This document shows positions 12,015-24,152 of a stretch of 40,889 nt of DNA, in pieces. Numbering within the stretch: position 1 is the first letter of the stretch; the number at the start of each line of letters is the position of its first letter. The notes beneath the pieces are model-generated. The model did not search any database, was not told where the DNA came from, and saw only the letters and a list, made by a program, of their open reading frames with translations. The stretch covers positions 1-40,889 of the forward strand of contig JADLCC010000211.1 in NCBI GenBank assembly GCA_020847425.1, given 5' to 3'. Position numbers and translations under genes: made by a program. The stretch comes from Saprospiraceae bacterium. Lineage in GTDB: Bacteria > Bacteroidota > Bacteroidia > Chitinophagales > Saprospiraceae.

Positions 12015-15000
12015 ATGACTTGCAAGGCAAAATCTCTGTTCTCAATCTTATCATTCTTATTTCTTACGATTTGGGTCAATGCCCAGACGACAGATGCCCT
12101 ACCCCGCAGCACACCGGAGGCGGAGGGTGTATCTTCAGAAGGAATCTTGAAGTTTCTGGATGCAGCAGGCAAAAGCAATCATGAGTTCCACAGCATCATG
12201 GTGCTGCGGCATGGCAAGGTTATTACGGAGGGTTGGTGGAATCCGTACAGCCCCAACCTGAAACACACCATGTATTCCGTGAGCAAGAGTTTTACCGCCA
12301 CGGCTGTCGGGTTTGCCGTGCATGAAAACAAACTAAGTGTACAGGATAAAGTCATCTCGTTTTTCCCGAACGATCTGCCCGAAACCGTCAGCCCTTTTCT
12401 GGCGGAACTGAGTATCAGGGATTTATTGAGCATGTCAGCCGGTCAGGAGCCCGACCCGACGCCATTGGTCAGAGCAGACAGCAATTGGGTGAGAGCATTC
12501 CTGGCCACACCGATTATACACAAGCCCGGCAGCAAATTTCTGTATAACTCCTTGTGTACCTATATGTTATCGGCTATTGTACAGCAGGTGACAGGAGAAA
12601 AAATCATCGATTACCTGCGCCCCAGGTTATTTACGCCGCTGGGAATTTCGGGTATGGATTGGGAGGTAGACCCCACCGGTGTCAATGTAGGCGGCTGGGG
12701 CCTCCGCGTCAAAACGGAAGACATGGCCAAATTTGGGCAGTTGTTCCTGCAAAAAGGCATGTGGAACGGCAAACAGGTGTTGCCGGCAGCCTGGGTGGAA
12801 GAAGCGTCCACGCTCAAGATCATTCAACATCCGGATTTGCCCCAGGCCAAAAAAGACTCCAGCGACTGGGAACAGGGCTATTGCTACCAGATGTGGCGCT
12901 GCCGAAACAACGCTTACCGGGGAGACGGCGCTTTTGGCCAGTTCATCATCGTTATGCCCGATCAGGATGCCGTTGTGGTGATCACCGCCGAAACTTCTGA
13001 TATGCAGCAGGAGTTCAACCTCGTCTGGAAGTATTTGTTCCCCGCCATTCAAAAAGACCCGCTGACTGCCAATAAAAAGGCCCTTTCGATGCTCAAAAAG
13101 CAACTCAGGGCCCTTGCACTCCCCATACCGGCAAAAGGCGCCGCTACTCCCACAGCAAAAAACATTGCCGGCAAAACCTATTCGCTTTCTCCAAATGATA
13201 TGTTTATCCAAAATATCTCTTTTCAATGGAAAGGAGATGTTTGTGAAATGGTATTAAAAAACAATACCGGAACGTATAACCTGCGTTTCGGGTCCGGCAA
13301 ATGGGTTTACGGAGAAACGCCTAAACGCGGCCCTTCGCTGGTTGCAATGGCGAAGGCTCATTTTGTTGGTTTGCCCGATCCCAAAGTGGCAGGAGCCTAT
13401 CGCTGGACGGATCAAAACACCCTGGAACTGACCCTGCGCTATTACGAAAGTCCGCATACGGAAACCTACGTCTGCCGGTTTGATCAAAACAAGGTGGCCC
13501 TGGAAGTTCAAAGTAGTTTTGTCAAAAACAAATCGGTGGCAATCAAAGGGTTACTGGCTGAAGGCCAGGCAAAACCCGTCCGGCTGATTCTCCGCGGCGA
13601 CGACATGGGTTTTTCCCATTCCGGCAACGAAGCGCTGATCAAATCCTGGAAAGAAGGTATCCAAACCTCGATCGAAGTGATTGTTCCATCGCCCTGGTTT
13701 CCGGAAGCGGTGCGGTTGCTGCAACAAAACCCCGGCGTAGATGTGGGTATTCATTTGGCCATTACCAGCGAGTGGGACAATGTCAAATGGCGGCCAATGA
13801 CAGATTGCCCGAGTATCCAAAACCAGGACGGCTACTTTTTCCCGATGGTTCAGCCCAACAAGAACTATCCCGGTCAGTCCATTGCAGAAAACCCTTGGAA
13901 GATAGAAGACATTGAAAAAGAATTTCGGGCGCAGATTGAAATGGCGCTTGAAAAAATTCCGCGCATCAGCCACATGTCCGCCCATATGGGTTGTGCATAT
14001 TTATCAGATGAGGTAAGGTTACTTACCCAAAGACTGGGTGAGGAGTATAACATCCCGCTCGAAGGTGGAGAAAAGGCTTTTAACTGGACTGGCTACGACG
14101 GTCCGCACCAGACATTCGCCGAGAAAAAACAAAGTTTCCTGAAAATGCTTCAAAAACTGGAGCCGGGCAAAACCTACTTGTTCTTAGATCATCCCGGGTT
14201 AGATGGCCCCGAACTCCAGGCCATTCACCATATCGGTTATGAAAACGTGGCCGAAGACAGGCAAGGTGTTACCGACCTGTTTCTGGACCGGGACATTCGT
14301 GATTACATCGATCAAAACGGCATACAACGTATTGGTTATAATGAACTTACATCGCATGAAGACTGGTGGAAAGAGGCTATTGTATACCAGATTTACCCCC
14401 GCAGTTTTAAAGACAGTGATGGTGACGGAGTCGGCGACCTGAAAGGGATAATTTCAAAACTGGATTATGTGAAAAACCTGGGGGTCGATATGGTTTGGTT
14501 GAACCCTATATTTTCCTCACCAAACAAAGACAATGGCTACGATATATCTGATTATCAGAATATTATGAAAGAATTCGGCACAATGGCCGATTTCGACGTT
14601 TTGCTCTCGGGTTTCCATAAAAGAGGTATCAAGGTTTTTATGGATATGGTACTCAATCATTGCAGCGACGAACATGCCTGGTTTAAATCGGCCCGCAGCT
14701 CGCGCAACAGCCCCTATTACAACTACTTCCATTGGTGGCCCGCAGAAAAAGGCAAACCGCCGTATCGCTGGAGCATTTTTGATGAAAAAGGAGATGCCTG
14801 GGAATACAATGAAGCCACCAATTCCTATTACCTGCATTATTTTGCCGATGCGCAGCCCGATCTGAACTGGGAAAATCCGAAATTGCGGCAGGAAATATTC
14901 AAAATGATGCGTTTCTGGCTCGACAAAGGTGTCGATGGTTTTCGGCTGGATGCGATTGCTTTTTGTTCCAAAGACACCAACTGGCCACCCCTGCCTGCAG

Positions 15001-16013
15001 CATACAATGGCAATTGGGGCATGTATTACGCGAGCGGCCCCCATCTGCACGATTACATGCAGGAAATGAACCGCGAAGTGTTGTGCAAATACAACGTCAC
15101 CACCGTTGCCGAGGCCATGGGCGATGTGGAACGCGTGATGAAATTTGTCGACCCGGCACGAAAGGAACTGGATATGGCCTATTATTTCGAAGCAATCGAC
15201 TTCGGTTATTTGCCCAATGAATATAAAATGCCTGACCCCAAAGGCTATGATCTGGTAGCCTGGAAAAAGATTTATGCCAAGTGGACCGATGCCTTTTCCC
15301 AAAAGGGCTGGGGCACCATGTACCTCGCCAACCACGACCAGCCGCGCATGCTCACGCGCTGGGGCAATGACGACCCGGCTTTCCGGGAACGCTCTTCCAA
15401 ACTACTCACCACTTTTATTTTAAGCATGCGCGGCACGCCGTTTTACTATTATGGCGATGAAATTGGTATGAACAACATCAAATTTGATAAAGTGGAAGAG
15501 TACAACGATATCGAATTGCTGACCAATTACGCACAGGTTAAAGCCAAAGGGGGAGATTTAAACCGTTTTCTGGATGGCATGAAAATATCCTCGCGCGACA
15601 ACGGCCGCACACCCATGCAATGGGACGCCACCCAGCAAGCCGGATTTACAACAGGCAAACCCTGGTTGAAAGTGAACCCGAATTATACGGCTGTCAACGT
15701 ACAGGCACAGGAAAACGATCCGGGGTCCATCCTTTCATATTTCAAAAAAATGGTTGCGCTGCGGAAAAACAACCCGGCGCTGGTTTACGGCGATTTTGAA
15801 CTGGTAGACATCGACAACCCCTCCGTTTTTGCATTTACCCGCACGCTGGACCACAAAAAAATGCTGGTACTGCTCAACTTTAAGGCCGTAAATGCTTCTG
15901 TAAACACCGGGCTGGATCACAGTAAAGCAAAAGTGCTGATCAGTAATTATGCTGCCCCCATGACAGCGGGAAAACTGAGGCCTTATGAAGCCATAGTGCT
16001 CGAAATCAATTGA
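12015..16013 (+). CDS. Secreted fusion: serine beta-lactamase-like + ChbG/YdjC-like deacetylase + GH13 glycosidase
   Basis: One open frame of 1332 residues with a signal peptide (cleavage near 'VNAQTT', about 24). Module 1 (about 30-370) is a class C beta-lactamase/esterase fold: nucleophile S88 in S88-V-S-K91, Tyr motif 'YNS' (177-179), plus a beta domain (380-500). Module 2 (about 518-775) is ChbG/YdjC-like: metal-site 'RGDDMGFS' (D529/D530), 'GIHLAITSEW' (H580) and 'HMSAHMGC' (H653/H657). Module 3 (about 783-1332) is GH13, closest in look to oligo-1,6-glucosidases: 'YQIYPRSF', 'DMVLNH', nucleophile D979 in 'GFRLDAI', acid E1033 in 'VAEAMG', D1108 in 'ANHDQPR'. All three sets of catalytic residues are present. 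It is probably a periplasmic or extracellular multi-enzyme acting on an acetylated amino- or alpha-glucan; the substrate is inferred only. Each module is normally a separate protein. Confidence 0.9.
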   Translation: MTCKAKSLFSILSFLFLTIWVNAQTTDALPRSTPEAEGVSSEGILKFLDAAGKSNHEFHSIMVLRHGKVITEGWWNPYSPNLKHTMYSVSKSFTATAVGFAVHENKLSVQDKVISFFPNDLPETVSPFLAELSIRDLLSMSAGQEPDPTPLVRADSNWVRAFLATPIIHKPGSKFLYNSLCTYMLSAIVQQVTGEKIIDYLRPRLFTPLGISGMDWEVDPTGVNVGGWGLRVKTEDMAKFGQLFLQKGMWNGKQVLPAAWVEEASTLKIIQHPDLPQAKKDSSDWEQGYCYQMWRCRNNAYRGDGAFGQFIIVMPDQDAVVVITAETSDMQQEFNLVWKYLFPAIQKDPLTANKKALSMLKKQLRALALPIPAKGAATPTAKNIAGKTYSLSPNDMFIQNISFQWKGDVCEMVLKNNTGTYNLRFGSGKWVYGETPKRGPSLVAMAKAHFVGLPDPKVAGAYRWTDQNTLELTLRYYESPHTETYVCRFDQNKVALEVQSSFVKNKSVAIKGLLAEGQAKPVRLILRGDDMGFSHSGNEALIKSWKEGIQTSIEVIVPSPWFPEAVRLLQQNPGVDVGIHLAITSEWDNVKWRPMTDCPSIQNQDGYFFPMVQPNKNYPGQSIAENPWKIEDIEKEFRAQIEMALEKIPRISHMSAHMGCAYLSDEVRLLTQRLGEEYNIPLEGGEKAFNWTGYDGPHQTFAEKKQSFLKMLQKLEPGKTYLFLDHPGLDGPELQAIHHIGYENVAEDRQGVTDLFLDRDIRDYIDQNGIQRIGYNELTSHEDWWKEAIVYQIYPRSFKDSDGDGVGDLKGIISKLDYVKNLGVDMVWLNPIFSSPNKDNGYDISDYQNIMKEFGTMADFDVLLSGFHKRGIKVFMDMVLNHCSDEHAWFKSARSSRNSPYYNYFHWWPAEKGKPPYRWSIFDEKGDAWEYNEATNSYYLHYFADAQPDLNWENPKLRQEIFKMMRFWLDKGVDGFRLDAIAFCSKDTNWPPLPAAYNGNWGMYYASGPHLHDYMQEMNREVLCKYNVTTVAEAMGDVERVMKFVDPARKELDMAYYFEAIDFGYLPNEYKMPDPKGYDLVAWKKIYAKWTDAFSQKGWGTMYLANHDQPRMLTRWGNDDPAFRERSSKLLTTFILSMRGTPFYYYGDEIGMNNIKFDKVEEYNDIELLTNYAQVKAKGGDLNRFLDGMKISSRDNGRTPMQWDATQQAGFTTGKPWLKVNPNYTAVNVQAQENDPGSILSYFKKMVALRKNNPALVYGDFELVDIDNPSVFAFTRTLDHKKMLVLLNFKAVNASVNTGLDHSKAKVLISNYAAPMTAGKLRPYEAIVLEIN

Positions 16014-16049
16014 TTGCATTTAAGTACAAGGACAATAAAGCCAACAATA

Positions 16050-17213
16050 ATGGACAAAAGCAGTAAAAAAAGTAAACGGCGGGATCGCAATGAAAAGGCA
16101 ATCATCAGGGGTCGCGATGAAAAGACCAGCGTTGCGGAGAAACCAGCCAAAAGCAATTATTTCGGAGCATTAACAGGTGTACGAGCCATTGCGGCTTATA
16201 TGGTATTTCTGCTGCATTACAATCCATTCAGCCCAACGGTGATCGGCAAACCATTGTATGATTTTACAAGAGAATTGCACATCGGCGTGACCATTTTTTT
16301 TGTATTGAGCGGCTTTCTTATTGCATATCATTATTCCGATTTAAAAGAATTCCGGTTTAAAAAATACCTGGTCAATAGAATTGCGCGGATATATCCAGTC
16401 TATTTTATACTCACAACATTTACCTTTTTGGTATTTATCCAAAACAATGCGATTTCAGGCACCCTTATTAATGTTTACCTTTTGAATATCACCTTTTTAA
16501 GGGGCTTTTTCGATGATTTTAAATTTACCGGAATTGCACCTGGCTGGTCTTTAACCATTGAAGAAACATTCTATTTTTCAGCACCGCTGTTTTTTCTGTT
16601 GCTGAATCGAAGCAGATACTATTTTATCATTCTACCGCTCCTTCTTGTGTCCCTGGGGGTCGGGCTCGTTGTAGTATTTTCTCAGGTCGACTTTTACGGG
16701 TTTTTCAAAACGTACGAATTCATGTTCCGATACACGTTTCTCGGAAGGTGTTCAGAGTTTTTTATTGGAATAGGTTTAGCCTTCTTTTTTAAACAAAAAG
16801 CCTGGCAGCCGAAATTCAATTACTTCACCTACGCGGGTATACTTGGAATAATTATTTGTATGTACTTCATTTCCTTGTATAAAGGCAACTTTGATTATGG
16901 CATACGGCACCCGGTTGGCAAAGTGCTGAATACCCTGGTGTTACCCATTTTTGGGATCGTTCCGTTTTTTTACGGGCTTTTAACGGAAAAAACCTGGATT
17001 TCTTCCTTACTGGGCAGTAAATTGTTTGTGTTCCTGGGCAAAAGTTCCTACGTGTTTTATTTAATTCACATGAGCGTAATCAGTGTGTTTTTACACCAAT
17101 ACAGCCCCAGCATTTTATTGCTTTTTCTGGAGTTAAACCTGGTCGCCATGCTGATTTTTAAATTCATTGAAGAGCCTTTAAATCTTTTTATCAGGAAAAA
17201 GTTGGCCCCCTAA
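16050..17213 (+). CDS. Membrane O-acyltransferase, acyltransferase-3 (OatA-like) family
   Basis: About 387 residues from the ATG at 16050; the track's TTG at 16014 abuts the previous stop and is unlikely. A Lys/Arg-rich cytoplasmic head (about 1-35) precedes 10 or so membrane helices. The family motif is near the first helix ('TGVRAIAAYMVFLLHY', with the conserved Arg and His), followed by 'VTIFFVLSGFLIAYHY' and a late 'YVFYLIHMSV'. Such enzymes move acetyl or other acyl groups to glycans, lipids or peptidoglycan. It begins 36 bp after the fusion gene and may be co-transcribed; acetylation and the neighbouring deacetylase-like module could act on the same glycan, but this is speculation. The gene is AT-richer than its neighbours. 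Confidence 0.88.
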   Translation: MDKSSKKSKRRDRNEKAIIRGRDEKTSVAEKPAKSNYFGALTGVRAIAAYMVFLLHYNPFSPTVIGKPLYDFTRELHIGVTIFFVLSGFLIAYHYSDLKEFRFKKYLVNRIARIYPVYFILTTFTFLVFIQNNAISGTLINVYLLNITFLRGFFDDFKFTGIAPGWSLTIEETFYFSAPLFFLLLNRSRYYFIILPLLLVSLGVGLVVVFSQVDFYGFFKTYEFMFRYTFLGRCSEFFIGIGLAFFFKQKAWQPKFNYFTYAGILGIIICMYFISLYKGNFDYGIRHPVGKVLNTLVLPIFGIVPFFYGLLTEKTWISSLLGSKLFVFLGKSSYVFYLIHMSVISVFLHQYSPSILLLFLELNLVAMLIFKFIEEPLNLFIRKKLAP

Positions 17214-17315
17214 CATCGCTTGTCCAACGTTCAACCCTTGTTTCGCAGCACTCACCCCTTTTTCCTTGCTCCAATGGATCCGAATGCCGCATTCTTGTAT
17301 CAAAAAAATACACAG

Positions 17316-18338
17316 ATGCGCAAAATAGTTTTAATTATTACCCTGTTCTACCTCTTTGTTGGGTCGCTTTTGGCTCAATACAACTGGGAAATGCTCCCCA
17401 ACTCGCCACAAAACGGCCAAAAACAAGATGACGTATTTTTCCTTTCGCCAACGCTTGGGTGGAGCGTCAACGGCTCAGGACGCATTTATAAAACCGTGGA
17501 TGGTGGCGCATCCTGGACAAAAATATTCGAGCAGCCGGGTACCTATTTCCGCTGTATCGGGTTCATCGATTCCCTGAACGGCTTTGCCGGCAATATCGGA
17601 ATGGATTATTTCCCAAACGTAACCGACGCCACACCACTCTATCGTACTGGCGACGGTGGGGTTTCCTGGCAACCCGTGACTACCATCAAAGGCAGTGCTC
17701 CAACAGGGCTTTGCGCAATCCAGATAGTCTCTCCCAAAGTAATTGTTGCCGGAGGGCGGGTCGGAGGACCCACGCACTTGATGCGCAGCATCGATGGAGG
17801 TGCGACCTGGATCAGCCAAAGCCTTGATAATCAAATTGCTATGGTCACCGACCTCTATTTTTCAAGTCCCGATACAGGTTTTATATTCGGTGGTACTGAC
17901 GCAAATATTCAGGTTTCCCACGCTAGTATCCTGCATACTGTGGATGCCGGCAAAACCTGGACCAAGGTTTATCAGTCCACACGCCCATTTGAAATCATCT
18001 GGAAAGCGCATTTTCCAACGCCTACTACCGGTTACGCGACGCTTTTGAGTTATGCGCCGAACACACTCGACCGCTTCATCGCCAAAACGACGGATGGCGG
18101 GCGCAACTGGAATGACCTGTCGCTTGTTAGTAATGGCGCAAAATCATTCGGTGTCGGTTTTTTGACTGAAGAGACCGGTTGGGTAGCCTGCGACCACTCC
18201 ATCTATGAAACATCTGACGGTGGAAAGACGTGGGTGCCTGAAAATGTCGGTCAATATGTGAACAAAATCAGGGTATTGGAAGGCGTCGCATATGGAGTCG
18301 GTGTGCGTATTTACAAAATGACACTCAGTAAACCTTAA
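17316..18338 (+). CDS. Secreted Asp-box (BNR/YCF48-like) beta-propeller protein
   Basis: 340 residues from the ATG at 17316, which gives a clean signal peptide ('MRKIVLIITLFYLFVGSLLAQ'); the TTG at 17220 would bury it. Six Asp-box repeats of the form S/T-x-D-G-G-x-x-W are visible, e.g. 'KTVDGGASWTK', 'RTGDGGVSWQP', 'RSIDGGATWIS', 'TVDAGKTWTK', 'KTTDGGRNWND' and 'ETSDGGKTWVP'. This predicts a six- or seven-bladed propeller like YCF48/Hcf136 or sortilin. Such proteins are usually assembly or binding factors; sialidase catalysis is not supported because no arginine triad is apparent. It is followed by a membrane protease at 9 bp, so co-transcription is likely. Confidence 0.85.
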   Translation: MRKIVLIITLFYLFVGSLLAQYNWEMLPNSPQNGQKQDDVFFLSPTLGWSVNGSGRIYKTVDGGASWTKIFEQPGTYFRCIGFIDSLNGFAGNIGMDYFPNVTDATPLYRTGDGGVSWQPVTTIKGSAPTGLCAIQIVSPKVIVAGGRVGGPTHLMRSIDGGATWISQSLDNQIAMVTDLYFSSPDTGFIFGGTDANIQVSHASILHTVDAGKTWTKVYQSTRPFEIIWKAHFPTPTTGYATLLSYAPNTLDRFIAKTTDGGRNWNDLSLVSNGAKSFGVGFLTEETGWVACDHSIYETSDGGKTWVPENVGQYVNKIRVLEGVAYGVGVRIYKMTLSKP

Positions 18339-21357: not shown

Positions 21358-21789
21358 TTGCGCACCCTCGAGGTTTTTGCGGGAAACGAAAACCGTAACG
21401 CACTGTACCATCATGTACAACAGTCGGTTGTCCATACCGAAATGTGTTGCTTCTGGATGGATCCCAATATCCACCAAAAGACCTGGCTTAATTTTTACAT
21501 CTGGTTGTGTGTAGCCTATGCTTTGCGGGTATTCGGCACAAAACAGTTGATTTTCGGCACTAACTCTGCGCGTTTAGCCGCATTGTACAGTTCTGCTTCA
21601 AAATACCAACTGCTGCACACTGATTGTGTAAATCAAAAACAGACGTTCATTTTTACCTGCCCGCGCAAGGATTGCCTGCTGGGAGTTGCGGAGATTTTAT
21701 ACTATAAAATGAAAAGGTTGGGGAAAATAAAAGGGCGGGCTATTAAATCGCAAGCAAATGATTTTCAGGCTGTTGTAGTGATGGGGTAA
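21358..21789 (+). CDS. Hypothetical protein, possibly a gene remnant
   Basis: 143-residue open frame beginning at a TTG 5 bp after the regulator stop; no good ATG is near the start. The translation has hydrophobic segments ('NFYIWLCVAYALRVFG') and looks protein-like in parts, but no motif is recognised. It may be a real gene with a non-ATG start, or the remains of a longer one. It ends 36 bp before an inverted repeat. Confidence 0.35.
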   Translation: MRTLEVFAGNENRNALYHHVQQSVVHTEMCCFWMDPNIHQKTWLNFYIWLCVAYALRVFGTKQLIFGTNSARLAALYSSASKYQLLHTDCVNQKQTFIFTCPRKDCLLGVAEILYYKMKRLGKIKGRAIKSQANDFQAVVVMG

Positions 21790-21953: not shown

Positions 21954-24152
21954 CTATAACACCAGCAACCCATATCCCCGCAGCGTTCCAATCGCCTTTC
22001 CGTACCAGAACAACTCAAAATCTTCCAGTCCGGCAGATTCATAATGGACTTTCACTTCCTGAAAAGTGAGCACTTCAGGGTTTTCCACTGATAGTTTTTG
22101 CAAGATAGCGGCCAGCCATTTGCCCTGTGTCTGTTCCACATTAATGCGCAAGGTTTCTCTTTTATCCTGAAAAGTCAGGCTGAGCATTTCCCATTGTCGA
22201 CCTTTTTTTGTTTTGGTAAAAGGGGTCGTTACTGGGGCGGTACCCAGCCAGACTATTTTTGCAGTAGGTTTCAAGGAAAAAAGTTCTTCCTCCTGTAATG
22301 CTTCGACAATGTATGTTTTGGAAACACTGCTGCGCGGCGTTTTAAAATCGAACCATTCGTGTAAGGGGAAATCCAGGCCGATGCCGTGCATAAAATTGAG
22401 CAATGATTTTTTCAGGCCGTAACTGTACGCATCGTGGTCGGCGCCGGTCGGGTCGATGTGTACGATATCGTTGTTGGCAAAACTGCCCGTTTGATCCGTT
22501 TCTTTTTGTACGCCGAAACGCTCAGGGTACATGCCTACAGGGCTATGCGCCGTCATGGCAAACTGGTGCCAGAAACCTGACTGCAGGATACCTGCCTGAA
22601 ACATCTGGCGCACCATTTCCAGCGAATCAATGGTTTCCTGCGCTGTTTGTGTGGGGAAACCGTACATCAGGTAAGCGTGTACCATTATACCTGCATCGGT
22701 AAAATGTTTGGTCACCCGCGCTACCTGGGCCACCGTCACACCTTTTTGGATCAGATCGAGCAGGCGATCAGAGGCCACCTCCAATCCACCGGAAATAGCC
22801 ACACAGCCCGAAGCCTTCAACAAAAAACACAGGTCGCGGCTGAAACTTTTTTCAAACCGGATATTGGTCCACCAGGACACAACAAGTTTTCGCCGGATAA
22901 TTTCCAATGCCAGTGCCCGCATCAATGCAGGCGGGGCGGCCTCATCCACAAAATGGAAGCCGTTTTGTCCGGTTTGAGCGATCATCTCCTCCATCCGGTC
23001 GCAGAGCAATTGGGCTGTCAGCGGTTCGTAGACTTTGATATAATCCAGGGAAATATCACAAAACGTGCATTTGCCCCAGTAACACCCGTGCGCCATGGTC
23101 AGTTTGTTCCAGCGTCCGTCGCTCCACATGCGATGCATCGGATTGGCAATTTCCAGCACCGAAATGTATTGATCCAGCAGCAGATCGCTGTAATCTGGCG
23201 TGCCCACTTCCGTCTGTTTGTAATCCTTGCTCAAACTGTGGTTCAGGTACTCCACTTTCCCGTCGACCAGCGCAAAAGCGCGTTTCAACAATTCCAGCGG
23301 ACGTTTCCCGGCAATATGTTCGATCAAATGTTCAACCGGCGCTTCACCATCGTCGAGCGTGATAAAATCGAAAAACTCGAATACCCGTGGTTCGCTGAGT
23401 GAACGCAGTTCCGTATTGGCAAAACCGCCGCCCGTCGCTACTTTGACGCCTGGACAATGTTGTTTGATCCACTGTCCGCAACGAAAAGCTGCGTATAAAT
23501 TTCCCGGAAAAGGCACCGAAATCGCCACTAAATCGGGTTTGATTTCAGCCATCCGGTCTTTAAGAATAGCGATCAGGAGTTGGTCGACGTATGTGTAATC
23601 CTGTTGTAAAGCCGCATACAGTTCATCAAACTGATTGGCAGAGCGGCCCAGGCGTTCGGCGTAGCGACTGAAACCGAAATGCGGATCCACACATTCTTGA
23701 ATCAAATCCGACAGGTCTTCCAAGTACAACGTAGCCAGGTGTTTGGCTTTGTCCTGCGTGCCCAGCGCGCCGAAAGCCCAATCCAGATCATCCAACTGAG
23801 CAAAACGCGCGGCTTCGGGTAAAAAACCATCCTGACAGATCAGGTGGGAAAGGGTCGGATTTTTACCCTGCAAAAACAGAACCACCGCGTCGATGCTGCG
23901 GATGTAATGGTCCCGTAAAGCAATAATCCGCTGCGCATTTTCCGAAAACGTGTTCGAATCGGCTGCGATATGGGCAAATAATTGCTGCAGCCCTTTTTTA
24001 GAAAACAGCGCCAGAATAACCTCTATGCCCAGGTCAGCCTGACGGGAAGCGATTTGCCTGGTATTCAAGAAACCCTTCAGATATGCCGTAGCGGGGTAAG
24101 GCGTATTCAGTTGGGTAAACGGAGGTGTGATCAAAAAAACGCTGGGTTGCAA
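21954..24152 (-). CDS. Large radical SAM protein (B12-binding-type architecture)
   Basis: 732 residues. The N-terminal ~300 residues resemble the Rossmann-like region of B12-binding radical SAM proteins ('LITPPFTQLNTPYP', 'PDLVAISVPFPGNLY', 'KVATGGGFANTEL'), but no DxHxxG cobalamin signature is seen. The radical SAM core (about 345-560) has the Fe-S motif C357-X4-C362-X2-C365 ('GCYWGKCTFCD'), one residue longer than the classical CX3CX2C, followed by 'GLEVASDRLLDLIQKGV' and 'YLMYGFPTQTAQE'. The ~150-residue C-terminal tail is of unknown fold. It is a single gene without a recognisable substrate peptide or partner, so the reaction is unknown. Confidence 0.85.
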   Translation of the reverse strand: MQPSVFLITPPFTQLNTPYPATAYLKGFLNTRQIASRQADLGIEVILALFSKKGLQQLFAHIAADSNTFSENAQRIIALRDHYIRSIDAVVLFLQGKNPTLSHLICQDGFLPEAARFAQLDDLDWAFGALGTQDKAKHLATLYLEDLSDLIQECVDPHFGFSRYAERLGRSANQFDELYAALQQDYTYVDQLLIAILKDRMAEIKPDLVAISVPFPGNLYAAFRCGQWIKQHCPGVKVATGGGFANTELRSLSEPRVFEFFDFITLDDGEAPVEHLIEHIAGKRPLELLKRAFALVDGKVEYLNHSLSKDYKQTEVGTPDYSDLLLDQYISVLEIANPMHRMWSDGRWNKLTMAHGCYWGKCTFCDISLDYIKVYEPLTAQLLCDRMEEMIAQTGQNGFHFVDEAAPPALMRALALEIIRRKLVVSWWTNIRFEKSFSRDLCFLLKASGCVAISGGLEVASDRLLDLIQKGVTVAQVARVTKHFTDAGIMVHAYLMYGFPTQTAQETIDSLEMVRQMFQAGILQSGFWHQFAMTAHSPVGMYPERFGVQKETDQTGSFANNDIVHIDPTGADHDAYSYGLKKSLLNFMHGIGLDFPLHEWFDFKTPRSSVSKTYIVEALQEEELFSLKPTAKIVWLGTAPVTTPFTKTKKGRQWEMLSLTFQDKRETLRINVEQTQGKWLAAILQKLSVENPEVLTFQEVKVHYESAGLEDFELFWYGKAIGTLRGYGLLVL

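Follow-up and report, generated by a model that had tools for sequence, protein, structure and literature searches.

In ChbG/YdjC deacetylases, three of which (KpChbG, 7VI8; 8JQE; 2I5I) were used here for comparison, a set of metal ligands and acid/base residues is found, corresponding to D10, D11, H61, H125, H206 and R223 of KpChbG (PMC9402603). Subfamily 31 of the glycoside hydrolase family 13 (GH13_31) includes alpha-1,4- as well as alpha-1,6-specific enzymes (PMC10096246). The literature searched held no description of a protein in which a class C beta-lactamase-like serine hydrolase (BLA), a YdjC deacetylase and a GH13 enzyme are joined, in agreement with the initial annotation, to which this architecture was not known as a described one; no paper on YdjC fusions with glycoside hydrolases, or on 8JQE/8JQF, was found there either. 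Such a protein is encoded in the window, i.e. the whole stretch of 40,889 nucleotides of Saprospiraceae DNA that was analysed. This architecture is unique among the genomes searched, while its origin is understandable and its modules are of known kinds.

Modules of the fusion protein

The open reading frame at 12015-16013 (+ strand; ATG at 12015, stop codon at 16011-16013) encodes 1332 amino acids in a single uninterrupted frame. Pfam searches and motifs agree with the initial annotation that it holds three enzyme modules with intact catalytic residues, and the junctions that had been placed at about residues 505-520 and 778-785 proved correct. The sequence begins with a predicted signal peptide lacking a lipobox (residues 1-23, with the boundary between VNA and Q; 12015-12083, +), in which residues 10-21 form a helix in the structural model. 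It is the only signal-peptide-like stretch of the protein, none being present ahead of the YdjC or the GH13 module.

The first catalytic module (residues 60-332; 12192-13010, +) belongs to the class C beta-lactamase-like serine hydrolases (PF00144, E 1e-34, 120.5 bits) and contains their SxxK and YxN motifs (S88-x-x-K91 and Y177-N178). Over residues 4-512, the protein resembles other class-C-beta-lactamase-like hydrolases and NF045925 (3-succinylated cholic acid synthase), but its score for the latter (427.4 bits, cut-off 800) places it outside that family. The nearest named family to this BLA subfamily is an acyltransferase, matched below the cut-off. An AlphaFold model showed that the BLA module is followed, on its C-terminal side, by a beta-sheet domain (residues about 385-515; 13167-13559, +), which lies within the NF045925 match. 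The model covered residues 1-783, i.e. BLA-YdjC, and its pTM of 0.52 makes the single domain folds usable, but not their mutual placement.

The YdjC module (residues 523-767; 13581-14315, +) scored well above the cut-off of PF04794 (E 3e-41, 142.8 bits versus 29.7). Its residues D529, D530, H580, H653/H657, H726 and R749 correspond, as judged from motif order, to the D, D, H, H, H, R set of the ChbG/YdjC deacetylases. It differs from these enzymes in being predicted to be secreted, in belonging to a distant subfamily and in being fused to other enzymes. The chitin disaccharide deacetylase model NF002559 gave it 54.5 bits (cut-off 227).

The GH13 module with its C-domain (residues 784-1325; 14364-15989, +) is subfamily 31-like, with a complete PF00128 domain (residues 792-1259, E 2e-148, 496 bits, 446/446 positions), the catalytic triad of nucleophile Asp, acid Glu and transition-state Asp (D979, E1033, D1108) and a Malt_amylase_C domain (residues 1259-1325) scoring slightly above its cut-off, the other three Pfam domains lying far above theirs. 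Its closest solved relative is the oligo-1,6-glucosidase 1UOK (E 5e-175; module residues 2-550 against 4-557 of the 558 in the chain), so nothing essential has been lost. The QPDLN motif was seen, and the nucleophile is followed by Ala980, which is Val in 1UOK; in this family, such an alanine suggests some alpha-1,4 activity.

The BLA-YdjC pair and the partners of YdjC

The initial annotation regarded each of the three modules as usually a separate protein, which is true of GH13 in the relatives but not of BLA and YdjC. The architecture search, carried out first in 60 relatives, then in 398 genomes of the family (named members Saprospiraceae) and in 394 other genomes of the phylum, revealed what had been overlooked, namely that BLA and YdjC form an established pair and that GH13 is a recent insertion in a single genome. 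Two-domain BLA-YdjC proteins, about 777-807 amino acids long, were found in 11 other Saprospiraceae genomes (G006, G016, G028, G034, G184, G166, G245, G304, G257, G084 and G078). Named records added Emticicia sp. CRIBPO (L183) from outside the family, which brings the total to 12 other genomes. These proteins share domain order, N-terminal signal and beta-sheet domain with the window protein (56-78% identity), and the genes of G006, G016 and G028 share its genomic neighbourhood as well; all of them stop after YdjC, however, where the window protein continues into GH13. The catalytic residues of both modules were invariant across 12 aligned BLA-YdjC proteins.

The first junction is therefore old and ordinary. 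Moreover, the reverse order, YdjC-BLA, occurs without the beta-sheet domain in two Saprospiraceae genomes, G411 and G110 (L100:6690-8501, - strand; L102:233-2056, + strand). Fusion in both orders suggests that the two activities belong together and points to a functional pair, so the proposal of coupled steps is supported for this half of the protein. For YdjC and GH13 the case is thinner and consists of the present fusion, one operon and one YdjC-CBM20-esterase fusion.

In Dyadobacter, Spirosoma, Larkinella and other Bacteroidota, proteins of this YdjC subfamily are mostly stand-alone secreted proteins of about 280 amino acids. The subfamily is a promiscuous fusion module: in related genomes it was found joined to a SASA (sialic acid-type) acetylesterase, twice to a 3-keto-disaccharide hydrolase, to an apiosidase-like domain and to an esterase with a starch-binding CBM20 domain (L101:5672-7294, +; L103:5212-6681, +; L105:7264-8832, -; L104:510-2756, +; and, for YdjC-CBM20-esterase, L119:5950-7905, +). 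Proteins with the 3-keto-disaccharide hydrolase domain (DUF1080) take part in periplasmic glycoside use (PMC9007349). A GH13-GH13-YdjC operon of abutting genes on one strand is present in a Bacteroidetes MAG (L152:2-4200). It was the only such operon in the 80 loci; among the matches listed in the 394 other genomes of the phylum, GH13 and YdjC were never adjacent. These recurrent fusions of an uncharacterised secreted subfamily to esterases and glycosidases provide testable hints on a substrate class outside the work on ChbG.

Origin of the GH13 junction

YdjC and GH13 share one frame in a single genome of the 398, that of the window itself, which is metagenome-assembled, and in none of the 394. 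The second junction is thus recent and unique to this genome among those searched. The relatives have their GH13 as a stand-alone lipoprotein in unrelated neighbourhoods. Such GH13_31-like alpha-glucosidases of Bacteroidota (G023, G166 and G257; 79-90% identity to the nearest) have all catalytic regions and a complete C-domain in common with the window module but carry their own lipoprotein signal, which the window copy lacks. In the GH13 tree the genera are dispersed (11 changes, which is no better than with shuffled labels), which indicates that the gene moves between lineages. The branch of the window module (0.14) is within the range of its stand-alone sisters (0.07-0.23). The dN/dS ratio was uninformative for the time since fusion, as synonymous sites are near saturation.

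The empty site is preserved in G006, whose contig C1 is collinear with the window between a histidine kinase gene (2008) and the gene at 21358, apart from the absence of GH13 and of the following acyltransferase gene; there, a BNR-repeat gene directly follows BLA-YdjC. DNA homology extends to 14369 and resumes at 17221, right after the acyltransferase stop codon, so that a segment of about 2.85 kb (14364-17220, +) is absent from G006. The BLA-YdjC gene of G006 ends with GAC-TGA-TGG, and the aligned site of the window reads GAC-TGG-TGG-AAA-GAG-GCT, exactly as the start of the stand-alone GH13 gene of G015; the join is GACTGATGG in G006 versus GACTGGTGGAAAGAG in the G015 gene and the window. Codon 784, in the junction D783-W784-W785 (14361-14369, +), aligns with the TGA stop codon of G006. 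The parent genes have only about 9 bases in common at the join. The simplest history would be an insertion joined at this short match, through which TGA became TGG and GH13 came to be read in frame. The second gene of the segment (16050-17213, +) encodes an acyltransferase-3 family membrane protein. Its GC content is 39%, compared with about 49% in the surrounding DNA, and it lacks close relatives within the family, the best ones (at most 49% identical) belonging to other families. By these sequence features it is foreign, and it arrived on the same segment as GH13.

Vertical inheritance of the triple fusion was rejected, as the parents are separate in all relatives. An insertion sequence or a duplication of the target was rejected as well, since the only repeats seen were weak and attributable to chance. 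A donor with adjacent GH13 and acyltransferase genes, from which both could have arrived jointly, was not found. With the parent forms and the empty site available for comparison, the locus clearly illustrates how DNA insertion at a stop codon can give rise to a new multi-enzyme protein.

Possible function and alternative explanations

We suggest an origin in two steps and a function as an exported trifunctional enzyme that trims acylated alpha-glucosidic oligosaccharides, and we give this reading about an even chance (roughly 0.5). In the first step, the BLA-type hydrolase would have been fused via the beta-sheet domain to a secreted metal-dependent deacetylase of the YdjC/ChbG type. In the second, recent one, the segment with the GH13_31-like alpha-glucosidase and the unrelated acyltransferase gene would have entered at the YdjC stop codon, appending in frame a complete enzyme without a signal of its own. 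After export to the cell surface or the periplasm, an acyl group in ester linkage might be removed by the serine hydrolase and an acetyl group by YdjC; GH13 might, presumably last, free terminal alpha-glucose, so that a single polypeptide would trim the oligosaccharide and could benefit from coupling the three steps. It is plausible that an exported enzyme trims acylated alpha-glucosides in this way. The fusion partners of YdjC, together with the GH13-GH13-YdjC operon, speak for an exported activity that processes acylated glycosides, GH13 being a further partner. A bolder version, in which the protein would be the first exported deacylase-deacetylase-alpha-glucosidase for acylated amino- or alpha-gluco-oligosaccharides and YdjC a general adaptor that each lineage combines with an enzyme acting on the product of deacetylation, seems unlikely.

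On the other hand, the addition of GH13 might be a neutral or near-neutral accident, in which a mobile gene fell in frame on a stop codon and its product, exported by the host protein's signal, acts independently of BLA-YdjC. The confinement of the triple form to one genome, the free movement of GH13 among genera and its unrelated neighbourhoods, the foreign acyltransferase on the same segment and a join made by microhomology only would all be expected of such an event, although the operon at L152 and the repeated fusion of the YdjC subfamily to carbohydrate-active modules speak against it. We consider it a serious, if somewhat less probable, explanation; as adjacency of GH13 and YdjC is rare, independent action of an accidentally attached GH13 is nearly as likely as the proposed processing.

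That an assembly or binning artefact joined two genes is improbable. The genome is indeed a draft of 628 contigs with 3.8% contamination, and the second junction is seen in no other genome searched, but G006-syntenic DNA on both flanks of the segment means that two false joins would be required. Moreover, the roughly 9 shared bases are well below usual assembly k-mers and the join is in frame, exactly between modules; an assembly error was therefore rejected as unlikely. Cleavage of an exported precursor into separate enzymes is equally hard to credit: although each of the modules occurs elsewhere as a complete fold on its own, the second junction has neither a linker nor a recognisable cleavage site and BLA-YdjC stays fused, with both modules conserved, in many genomes.

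The listed TTG start of the BNR-repeat gene falls in the former intergenic region (17220-17320), and homology to G006 suggests that the true start is the in-frame ATG at about 17316. Further downstream, the radical SAM gene of the window (21954-24152) has a relative in G026 that directly precedes a GH13 gene of another clade (L050:2601-6544).
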